In this document: positions 35,255 to 38,843 of the stretch, piece by piece | How positions within the stretch are numbered: the first letter of the stretch is position 1 | How the letters are laid out: each line of letters begins with the position of its first letter | Source: Halalkalicoccus jeotgali B3 | GTDB lineage: Archaea > Halobacteriota > Halobacteria > Halobacteriales > Halalkalicoccaceae | DNA: 44,576 nt | Assembly: GCF_000196895.1 (NCBI RefSeq) | Contig: NC_014300.1 | Span: forward strand, 1 to 44,576 | Direction of reading: 5' to 3' | The notes under the pieces: generated by a model | Told to the model about the DNA's origin: nothing | What the model saw: the letters and a program-made list of their open reading frames with translations, nothing else | The model's database searches: none | Made by a program: the position numbers and the translations under genes

Positions 35255-35521
35255 TTACTCTTTGAGTTGCCAGAGTCGCGCGTTTGCGACCTTCCGGCTC
35301 GTGATGGGTGAGTTCTCGTTGTCTTCGAACCGACGGAGCGCTGAATAGACGGTGTCGTAGTTCGCGTCGAGCGCATCAACGATCTCTTGAGTACCGGCGG
35401 CACCGTCGAGATCGCGGATCGTCTCGATATAATCCGTTTCTTCGTACTTTGTAGCGTAGCGCCCGGAGTCGGGGTCACGCTCTCGCCCATCCTTGACCAT
35501 CGTGACCTGGTTTGCTCCCAT
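35255..35521 (-). CDS. Small winged-helix regulator
   Basis: An 88-residue helix-turn-helix protein. It has DYIETIRDLDGAAGTQEIVDALDANYDTVYSALRRFED, which is a winged helix of the PadR/MarR-like kind, then a short basic C-terminus. ATG 35521 lies about 25-30 bases after a strong TATA (ttatataa) on the minus strand. A 24-bp palindrome lies 68 bases upstream, so it is a good candidate for its own binding site. It is divergent from the SWIM-domain gene at 35694. Confidence 0.75.
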   Translation of the reverse strand: MGANQVTMVKDGRERDPDSGRYATKYEETDYIETIRDLDGAAGTQEIVDALDANYDTVYSALRRFEDNENSPITSRKVANARLWQLKE

Positions 35522-35557: not shown

Positions 35558-35588
35558 CCACCCAGATAGGTTTGATGGTAAACTTTTT

Positions 35589-35612
35589 ACCTTCACAAGT
35601 ACTTGTGAAGGT
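35589..35612. promoter_or_regulatory. 24-bp perfect palindrome (probable operator)
   Basis: The 24 bases accttcacaag/tacttgtgaaggt are self-complementary throughout. The site lies between the divergent 35521 and 35694 genes, beyond the TATA of the first. It is likely the operator of the winged-helix protein. Confidence 0.8.
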
Positions 35613-35617
35613 TAGGG

Positions 35618-35693
35618 AAGCCCGGTCCTGTTGGGCGTTGAATCGCCCCGGTGATAGGACACCGAGGCCGGGTTTCTCTGGATCAGGAAACCC
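35618..35693 (+). promoter_or_regulatory. Leader able to form two mutually exclusive hairpins
   Basis: On the + strand, aagcccgg (35618-35625) can pair with ccgggttt (35668-35675). Inside it, gtcct (35625-35629) pairs with aggac (35656-35660) and gggcg/cgccc (35633-35637/35644-35648) forms a 6-base-loop hairpin. Alternatively gggtttc (35670-35676) pairs with gaaaccc (35687-35693), which ends right before the ATG at 35694. Both use the same ggg tt bases, so they cannot form together. This resembles a translational or transcriptional switch, but no known riboswitch was recognised. Confidence 0.5.
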
Positions 35694-36251
35694 ATGAACA
35701 CGAACACAACGCCAACGAAAGAAGGTATCGACAAGCGAACGATCCGCGCCGCAACAGAGAGCATGAGCATCGACCGCCATGCCGGTGAGGCCGGCGAGGT
35801 CGACGTCTACAGCGAGAGCGGCTCAGTGTACCGCGTGTGCCTGATCACCGAAACGTGCGAGTGTCCCAGCGACACGTATCAAGACGGTGCGTGCAAGCAC
35901 CAGCGCCGCGTCGAGATGGCACTCGGCCAGCACGACGTGCCGAATCTCGACGAGGAGACGGATGTCGAGCTGATGATCGCCGCTCGCGAGCAGTATCGCG
36001 GGCTAGGCGATTCGACGGTCGAGCACCGTCCGGCTGACGATGCTGTAGTTGTGACCGACGGCGGTGTTGCGACCGAGAGCCCCATGCAGGACACTGACGT
36101 CAACGAGCCGACAATCACCGGGCCGTGGACGGAACCGGCCGAGCAGGGTGGTGCGGAGTACTGGCGGTGCGAAGACTGTGGGCGCGAATCGCTCCGACGT
36201 GGGGACGTCGAGCGCTCGGAGTTCCACGCTGAGGAGTGCGTGCTCCGATGA
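35694..36251 (+). CDS. SWIM zinc-finger protein
   Basis: A 185-residue protein. It holds a SWIM motif, CECPSDTYQDGACKH (CxC, then CxH), near residues 52-70, preceded by a short strand region. The C-terminal end has a second Cys/His cluster (WRCEDCGRESL ... EFHAEEC). SWIM domains bind DNA or proteins. ATG 35694 comes directly after the switch-like leader described separately. The partner is unknown. The 36252-36488 gap holds no gene; it contains a catctc/gagatg inverted repeat near 36354. Confidence 0.78.
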   Translation: MNTNTTPTKEGIDKRTIRAATESMSIDRHAGEAGEVDVYSESGSVYRVCLITETCECPSDTYQDGACKHQRRVEMALGQHDVPNLDEETDVELMIAAREQYRGLGDSTVEHRPADDAVVVTDGGVATESPMQDTDVNEPTITGPWTEPAEQGGAEYWRCEDCGRESLRRGDVERSEFHAEECVLR

Positions 36252-36488: not shown

Positions 36489-38843
36489 TCACTCAGGCTC
36501 AATTCGGGAGAGCCGCATCGCGTTACCAGTGACGCCGAGACTCATCCCCATATCGCCGACGACGACCGCCAGCGCCACGCTCACTAGTCCGAGTGGGACG
36601 CCAAGTGCGAGCAGGGCCTTCACGCCGAGGCTCGACCAGATATTCTGGCGGATCACGCTGTTGGCCTTGTGCGACAGCGCATAGAGGTACGGCAGTTTCC
36701 CGATGTCGTCACCCATCAACGCGATGTCGGCGGTCTCGAGGGCAGTATCGGTGCCGGCAGCGCCCATCGCGACGCCCACCTCGGCGGTCGCGAGCGCGGG
36801 CGCGTCGTTGATGCCGTCACCGACCATCGCCACGTCGCCGTACTCCGCCTGCAACGTCTCCACGGCGTCGACCTTCTCGTCTGGCAGCAGCTCGGCGCGG
36901 TAGTCGTCGACGCCGATCTGCTCGGCGATCGCACGGGCGGTCCCTTCGTTGTCACCGGTCAGCATTACCACGTGGACGCCGAGGTCGTGCAGCCGTGCGA
37001 CCGCCTGTTCAGCGGCCGGACGAACTTCGTCAGCGACGCCGATGATGCCGACCAATTCGGTGTCAGTCCCAACGAGGACGACGGTCTTCCCTTCGTCCTC
37101 GAATCGCGAAATCGCGCCGTTGTCGATGTCGGTGCAACCCTCCTGCTCGCACTGTTCGTGTGCAGTCTCTGCGACCGCCCCGCCGTCGGTCCGGAGATGG
37201 GCGTGCGAAAGGTCGAAGCCCAACTCCTCGAAGAGAGCGGGCTTGCCCGCATAGTACGTCTCACTGTCGATGTTCGCACGGATTCCTTTTCCAGTGATGC
37301 TCTCGAATGCCTCGATACTAGGCACATCGTCGAGTTTCATTTCGTCGGCCCGGGCGAGGATCGCTTCGGCAATAGGGTGTTCACTGCGCTGCTCAAGCGC
37401 GGCCGCGTGCTGGATGACCTTCTTGTCGTTCGCATCGCCGAGCGGCACTACGTCAGTGACCGCGAGTTCGCCCTTCGTGAGCGTCCCCGTTTTGTCAAGG
37501 GCGATGACGTCGACATCGCCCATTGCTTCGAGATAGTTGCCACCCTTGATCAGGACGCCGTTTTTGGCGGCGCTCGTGATGCCGGAGACGACCGAGACGG
37601 GCGTCGAGATGACGAATGCGCACGGGCAGGCAATCACCAGCAGGGTGAGGCCACGAATGAACCACGTCTGCCAGCTGCCGCTGAACGTGTGGGAGAAGCC
37701 AGCGAGACTGACCGTGGCACCGCCGCTAATGAGCAGCGGCGGCAACGTAGCAGTCAGGATCGCCAAGACGACGACAGTGGGTGTGTAGTAGCCTGAAAAG
37801 CGGTCGACAAATTGTTCTTTCTCGGTCTTTTTTTCCTGTGCGCCTTGCACCATCTCGATGATCTGCGAGAGCGTCGACTCTGAGGCAGGTGACGTAGCCT
37901 CAAACTCAAGGTACCCTTCCTCGTTGATGGATCCGGCGTACACCTCGTCGTCGACACCTTTATCGACCGGGACGCTTTCGCCGGTGATCGGCGACTCGTC
38001 GACCGCACTCTCGCCTTCGACGACAGTACCATCAAGCGGGATCTTGTCACCCGGACGGACGACGACGGTCTCACCAACTTCAACCTCATCGACGGGAACG
38101 GTTACCTCGTCATCACCTCGCTTGACGGACGCCTCGTCGGGCGACAGTTCCATCAGTTCGCGCAGCGAGTTGCGGGCCTTATCCATCGCGTAGTCTTCGA
38201 GCAGTTCGGCGATGCTAAACAGGACGGCCAGCGTCGCAGCCTCGACAAAGTAGCCGATGCCGGTCGCGGCGATAATCGCCGTCCCCATCAACAGATCGAT
38301 GTCGAGACTCCGGTTCTTTGCAGAGTAGTAACCGCCGCGGACGACCGGGAGGCCGCTGGACACGATTGCGACGAGGAACACGATGTCAGCGAGGTGGAGT
38401 GGGTAGTCGAGAACGCTCGCTACGGTGACATCCTGTCCGGTGAGGACGAACTCAAAGAGCAGGCCGAGCGTCAAGAATCCCGCACCAATCCATGTCTTGA
38501 TAGCTCGTGAACTCGTCCAAATATCCGACGGCGGCGCAACGTTGACGCCGCCGTTCGATCCAGATGTCTCATCGTTCGAGCCGCCCACGACCTCATAGCC
38601 AGCGTTCTCGATCGCTGCGGCCACGTCGGCCTCAGTAACGCGGTCGGAGTCGTAGGTGACAGTGGCCGTGCCGGTAGTTGGTTGAAGGTTAGCGTCGACG
38701 ATACCGTCGACGCGCTGGAGACTCTTGTCGACCTTTTGCGCACAGGACGGGCAGTCCATCTCGGGGACGCTGAGGCGGACGGACAGCTCTCGTCGCTGTG
38801 CGTCCCCGCTCACCCCGGCTGCTGTTCTTGGGTTCTCTGTCAT
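36489..38843 (-). CDS. zntA: Zn/Cd/Pb-type P1B-2 ATPase (ZntA-like)
   Basis: A 784-residue P1B ATPase. One N-terminal HMA domain carries MDCPSC (Cys31/34). TGES is in the actuator, and the metal site is IACPCAFVISTPVSVVSG (Cys near 406/408), with the FVIST sequence typical of Zn/Cd/Pb exporters. DKTGTLT lies near 449, with SEHPIA, MLTGDNEGT and GDGINDAPAL. The N-domain has a Cys-containing insert (EQCEQEGCTD). ATG 38843 is closest to the HMA domain. A 5-bp hairpin (gcccc/ggggc at 38845-38860) lies directly before the ATG and a 14-bp palindrome at 38881-38894. A bat-type regulator lies upstream on the same strand. It should remove zinc, cadmium and lead from the cytosol. Confidence 0.93.
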   Translation of the reverse strand: MTENPRTAAGVSGDAQRRELSVRLSVPEMDCPSCAQKVDKSLQRVDGIVDANLQPTTGTATVTYDSDRVTEADVAAAIENAGYEVVGGSNDETSGSNGGVNVAPPSDIWTSSRAIKTWIGAGFLTLGLLFEFVLTGQDVTVASVLDYPLHLADIVFLVAIVSSGLPVVRGGYYSAKNRSLDIDLLMGTAIIAATGIGYFVEAATLAVLFSIAELLEDYAMDKARNSLRELMELSPDEASVKRGDDEVTVPVDEVEVGETVVVRPGDKIPLDGTVVEGESAVDESPITGESVPVDKGVDDEVYAGSINEEGYLEFEATSPASESTLSQIIEMVQGAQEKKTEKEQFVDRFSGYYTPTVVVLAILTATLPPLLISGGATVSLAGFSHTFSGSWQTWFIRGLTLLVIACPCAFVISTPVSVVSGITSAAKNGVLIKGGNYLEAMGDVDVIALDKTGTLTKGELAVTDVVPLGDANDKKVIQHAAALEQRSEHPIAEAILARADEMKLDDVPSIEAFESITGKGIRANIDSETYYAGKPALFEELGFDLSHAHLRTDGGAVAETAHEQCEQEGCTDIDNGAISRFEDEGKTVVLVGTDTELVGIIGVADEVRPAAEQAVARLHDLGVHVVMLTGDNEGTARAIAEQIGVDDYRAELLPDEKVDAVETLQAEYGDVAMVGDGINDAPALATAEVGVAMGAAGTDTALETADIALMGDDIGKLPYLYALSHKANSVIRQNIWSSLGVKALLALGVPLGLVSVALAVVVGDMGMSLGVTGNAMRLSRIEPE

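Follow-up and report, generated by a model that had tools for sequence, protein, structure and literature searches.

Can the leader of a small zinc-motif gene fold in two mutually exclusive ways, one of which would close off its own start codon? The question is raised by a short stretch in front of an ATG in the window, meaning here the whole DNA that was analysed, a complete contig of 44,576 bases that is one of seven contigs in its genome. A preliminary description had noted that one strand in this stretch could pair either upstream or downstream, and had read the arrangement as an RNA switch or attenuator belonging to no known class.

Fold and rival pairing of the window leader

The predicted fold of window positions 35615-35678 is a three-way junction on the forward strand. 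Its closing helix, P1, has 11 base pairs, formed by a 5' strand, gggaagcccgg (35615-35625), with 35668-35678, and is supported by the fold, by the alignment to a covariance model and by covariation. Side by side within P1 lie two hairpins on the same strand: P2 (35633-35648, with gggcg at 35633-35637 pairing with cgccc at 35644-35648), supported by fold and covariation, and P3 (35649-35664, with cggtg at 35649-35653 pairing with caccg at 35660-35664 around the loop atagga), supported by the fold and with pairs kept in 99.6-99.8% of cells. The upstream fold described earlier is thus retained, with its start moved 3 nt earlier, from 35618 to 35615, and with the stems formerly called nested now seen as neighbouring hairpins of a junction. 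The predicted energy of the leader fold was -46.2 kcal/mol, as against -33.2 kcal/mol for dinucleotide shuffles, and it was better than all 200 of the 200 shuffles (z -3.96).

The 3' strand of P1 (35668-35678, forward strand) is the shared strand, whose partner can be either the 5' strand of P1 or the segment before the AUG. In the second pairing gggtttc (35670-35676) joins gaaaccc (35687-35693) through seven Watson-Crick pairs and a possible U-G pair, which gives an alternative hairpin on the forward strand (35670-35693, loop 35677-35686) that abuts the start codon, with 0 nt between the stem and the ATG at 35694. Both pairings claimed for the shared strand are therefore present in the sequence, the second does cover the bases just before the ATG, and both covary across the family described below. 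The rival hairpin runs straight into the AUG with no T-run (U-run in the RNA) after it; a transcription attenuator or terminator was rejected for this reason, and a translational switch fits better. The absence of a known class also held up, as Rfam 15 at the gathering threshold gave no match in the whole window, a permissive scan of the leader gave chance-level matches only, and six loci with strong members of the family gave no Rfam match at E 0.1.

Leader family and covariation of both pairings

A covariance search in related genomes recovered homologous leaders that do show paired-base covariation. MAFFT alignments of mixed leader types put P1 in the wrong place, so the first covariance model, R1, which consists of six other loci with the window left out, was built from A3 and refined through cmsearch. 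R1 recovers the window leader at 33.2 bits (E ~9e-6 in 320 kb) and has matches in 117 of 293 genomes of the order, with up to nine per genome, some of them in tandem clusters. A second model of 94 members, R2, has matches in 180 of 392 Halobacteriales genomes, which cover 60 of the 95 genera. When 393 genomes were drawn from across the phylum, all matches fell within the order, with none outside the Halobacteriales. Two more copies were found on contigs C3 and C5 of the window's own genome, and SWIM homologues of Saliphagus and of further Halalkalicoccus genomes are preceded by leaders of the same shape and very different sequence; the leader was absent at SWIM homologues from Haloferax, Halorubrum lacusprofundi, Haloarcula and a Halorubrum virus. 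Judged by these matches, the window leader is one copy of a large haloarchaeal leader family. Copies are often plasmid-borne. The nearest plasmid DNA gave no match, and viral contigs scanned with two P3 patterns gave 0 and 1 match, the single match (L209) being missed by R2.

Across the 94 sequences, 94.7% of pair cells in the junction were standard and changes occurred on both sides in 22 of 25 pairs, with a covariation score of 0.523 compared with 0.195 when shuffled and less than 0.1 when slid. In 55 further loci, aligned afterwards and nearly all outside the training of either model, 93.6% of cells were paired, 24 of 25 pairs were doubly changed and the score was 0.591 (0.183 shuffled); both junction alignments were fitted to the model, and the junction counts are favoured by this fitting. 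All 13 modelled pairs of P1 covary. Outside the modelled pairs, strong conservation was found in a CUYG between P1 and P2, in the P3 loop (NUGGAA) and in a G after P3, and no covariation was found between J12 and L3.

The second pairing was examined by comparing the P1 3' strand with its own pre-AUG segment and with the segments of other leaders. Own partners paired better than swapped ones to a degree that 0 of 10,000 permutations reached. A separate comparison gave z 12.7 with control segments near zero, and the signal was z 15 on the full set and z 10.5 in 47 further loci. When leaders were restricted by identity it was z 10.3 below 70%, 5.2 below 60% (14 leaders) and 2.5 below 55%, where nine leaders are left. 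An unbiased scan for complementarity between 12-base windows, covering positions -60 to +60, placed P1 first (z 21.9) and the rival stem second (z 17.1); besides these two, strong signals came only from P2, P3 and the upstream operators. In 124 of 149 loci no nucleotide separates the rival stem from the AUG, and in 18 a single one does. The stem is short (4-5 bp) in about one sixth of loci. In all 55 further loci an ATG lies 8-24 nt 3' of P1. This geometry, taken with the covariation, is what would be expected of a start-gating hairpin, and a direct repeat that arose in some other way would hardly produce it. On the evidence of these alignments the leader has the architecture of a mutually exclusive RNA switch, in which two incompatible pairings are both kept by compensatory change, and the switch layout proposed earlier is supported by this covariation, which is strong for both pairings, the further loci included.

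Could the element instead act as DNA, as a recombination site or mobile repeat? Its many, often plasmid-borne copies, and the direct repeat formed by the P1 5' strand and the pre-AUG segment, would suit such a role. However, paired cells read on the sense strand contained 175 G-U and 35 A-C combinations (260 and 146 expected), and tolerance of G-U so far above A-C indicates that what folds is coding-sense RNA, in the same orientation as the gene. Promoter and AUG geometry are fixed as well, and compensatory changes run across three linked segments, so that we regard a DNA element as scarcely credible.

Predicted promoter, candidate operators and associated genes

A BRE/TATA-like promoter on the forward strand (35574-35589, TATA cttttta at 35583-35589) is indicated by the window sequence and by the family profile, and the predicted transcript start in the window is at about 35612-35615. 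Across loci the BRE/TATA element lies 26-37 nt upstream of P1, and in the profile a TATA box rich in T and A occupies -31 to -26 relative to P1; it is found in 86% of loci compared with 20% at a control position. The position of the TATA box predicts transcripts that begin at the first base of P1. A 5' end placed in this way, and a nearly constant spacing between P1 and the AUG, could also be explained by a constitutive 5' element in which a 5'-terminal P1 shields the mRNA from a 5'-3' exonuclease or positions the ribosome, with no switching. Such an element would leave unexplained why the pre-AUG bases, touching the AUG, have kept pace with the P1 3' strand over many sequence changes, and we consider it rather improbable.

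Next to the window promoter is a perfect 24-bp palindrome, accttcacaagtacttgtgaaggt (35589-35612), a candidate operator by its sequence and by family covariation. Across loci palindromes flank the TATA box on both sides, resemble each other and covary. A divergent ORF of 88 amino acids on the reverse strand (35255-35521) encodes a small putative winged-helix regulator, by its Pfam matches and its position a candidate repressor of the leader promoter; the Pfam matches, to HTH_29 and HTH_23, are weak and below the cut-off. Divergent regulators were found upstream in 120 of 146 loci (106 winged-helix, 14 of a second family), and about nine of the 26 loci lacking one are internal members of tandem clusters. 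Such clusters occur at L099, L100, L101, L102 and L103, where each successive small gene has its own leader and several inner copies have no adjacent regulator. Similarity among regulators was correlated with similarity among operators (Mantel r 0.46, permutation maximum 0.11; 0.44 corrected for leader similarity), suggesting that operators and divergent regulators co-evolve and implying many repressor-operator pairs, several per genome.

The ORF downstream of the window leader (35694-36251, forward strand, 185 amino acids) has a SWIM-type CxCx10-13CxH motif and a C-terminal CxxC/HxxxxC zinc motif. Its segment CECPSDTYQDGACKH fits the SWIM pattern CxCxnCxH, relatives of the protein are annotated as SWIM zinc fingers, and there are 89%-identical relatives on contigs C3 and C5. 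The window ORF has no Pfam match; a leader-linked protein of another locus matches SWIM (PF04434) at 7e-6. Leaders of the family are not confined to SWIM genes, and the downstream gene varies. The proteins encoded after the leaders are small haloarchaeal ones of diverse kinds, of which many carry a SWIM or CxxC zinc motif and few have Pfam matches; they include SWIM proteins, CxxC ribbons, TAT-signal proteins and unclassified ones, and have no common metabolic theme that might hint at a ligand. A ribosomal-protein leader was rejected, as no recognisable ribosomal gene lay downstream among 80 ORFs read by eye and no ribosomal Pfam family was found among ten scanned. A search for defence systems returned a single chance-level match (HamA, E 0.009). 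In the window a gene for a heavy-metal P-type ATPase (36489-38843, reverse strand) is convergent to the SWIM gene.

The zinc-binding proteins encoded by the window gene and many relatives raise the idea of autoregulation, in which the downstream SWIM or zinc protein would bind its own leader. We think this quite unlikely, as downstream proteins differ widely while the junction core is constant, and many SWIM genes have no leader.

A further shared feature lies inside the coding sequences. At codons 9-13 of the window ORF (35718-35732, forward strand; aaa gaa ggt atc gac) is a nucleotide motif of the family, N(AA|TT)RANNNYNNCG, present at +26 in 102 of the roughly 149 loci. Its position is locked to the AUG, and its wobble positions are constrained while the encoded amino acids vary. 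In the scan from -60 to +60 no leader segment paired or covaried with it. By its sequence context the leader is part of a stereotyped cassette that comprises a divergent regulator, operator palindromes, the leader, a small accessory protein and the codon 9-13 motif.

A proposed translational switch

We consider it probable that the leader is a haloarchaeal orphan translational switch, with the junction as its on state and the start hairpin as its off state. The pairings of both states rest on covariation; the signal, the direction and transcription we infer. Transcription would start at or near the first base of P1, as the TATA position indicates, and the nascent leader would fold into the three-way junction for which covariation argues, leaving by the sequence about 14-19 nt of single-stranded landing strip before the AUG, presumably the on state. 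A signal would then free the P1 3' strand to pair, as the covariation indicates, with the bases touching the AUG, and the resulting hairpin would block access of the ribosome and turn the gene off. The conserved unpaired CUYG and NUGGAA are a likely site for a common ligand or protein, and the winged-helix regulator and palindromic operators would add control of transcription as a layer of its own, a view that their co-evolution supports. Haloarchaeal translation is independent of Shine-Dalgarno sequences (PMC3986360; PMC8241225), which makes direct gating of the AUG a sensible form of control.

The junction is assigned as the on state because it is transcribed first, is more stable and frees the strand before the AUG. 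Covariation is equally compatible with the opposite logic: translation would be off by default, with the start hairpin formed, until a factor binds and stabilises the junction, and the conserved junction bases could serve as the binding site. This seems unlikely to us, since the standard energy model gives the junction a large advantage in stability even with no factor bound, and the junction is transcribed first. Energy prediction puts the junction on average 8.6 kcal/mol below the rival state, so a switch with the junction as its on state would need a large push, from a protein or helicase, from kinetic control or from cutting of the 5' strand, and a small or weak ligand alone may be insufficient to flip the modelled junction.

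Only a handful of archaeal cis-regulatory RNAs have been confirmed or predicted (PMC7247131), and the fluoride riboswitch is the sole natural archaeal riboswitch determined by experiment (PMC8241225). No description of the class was found in a search of open papers on haloarchaeal structured leaders, SWIM modules and archaeal switches, and it is apparently new among structured translational leaders. We do not file it as a riboswitch, a function with which the conserved unpaired junction core would be compatible. Like the fluoride/crcB riboswitch of Thermococcus kodakarensis, it is a leader with 5' structure in which helices close to the start site exclude each other, but it has no Rfam match or known ligand, would block the AUG itself and not a Shine-Dalgarno sequence, and precedes plasmid-type accessory genes. 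Archaeal ribosomal-protein leaders (S15, eL15 and L4; PMC7247131) include at least one structured leader found computationally in haloarchaea (S15); in contrast, the present leader has no Rfam match, and its genes are non-ribosomal and differ from copy to copy. In synthetic theophylline riboswitches of Haloferax volcanii, masking of the AUG region by RNA structure was used to control translation (PMC8241225), but these are man-made and use a theophylline aptamer, while the leaders described here are a natural family.

Somewhat tentatively, as the case seems to us slightly short of even, we propose that these leaders are a new class of natural archaeal switch, in which translation is gated at the AUG itself and no Shine-Dalgarno sequence is masked. 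The class would be common to dozens of unrelated plasmid or island genes and would be read with the codon 9-13 motif. If so, a single signal could control a whole layer of haloarchaeal accessory genes, and the conserved core and multi-gene use do suggest one common signal for many uncharacterised genes of this kind. Haloarchaeal mRNAs are mostly leaderless; in Haloferax volcanii, 72% of the transcripts that code for proteins lack a leader (PMC4983044). The leader class, in which two incompatible folds covary and end at the AUG, occurs in nearly half of the sampled haloarchaeal genomes, and the question of natural translational switching without Shine-Dalgarno sequences becomes directly testable in tractable hosts.

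At L051 and L063 a decayed ORF (ATA start, frameshift) occurs together with a decayed P1, as would be expected if the leader matters only with a working gene. At L267 (1908-1988 of NZ_CP144464.1, V1795_RS21470) the annotated SWIM coding sequence starts just 5' of the leader and continues across it. The leader implies a start codon farther downstream, so the start given in RefSeq is probably wrong.
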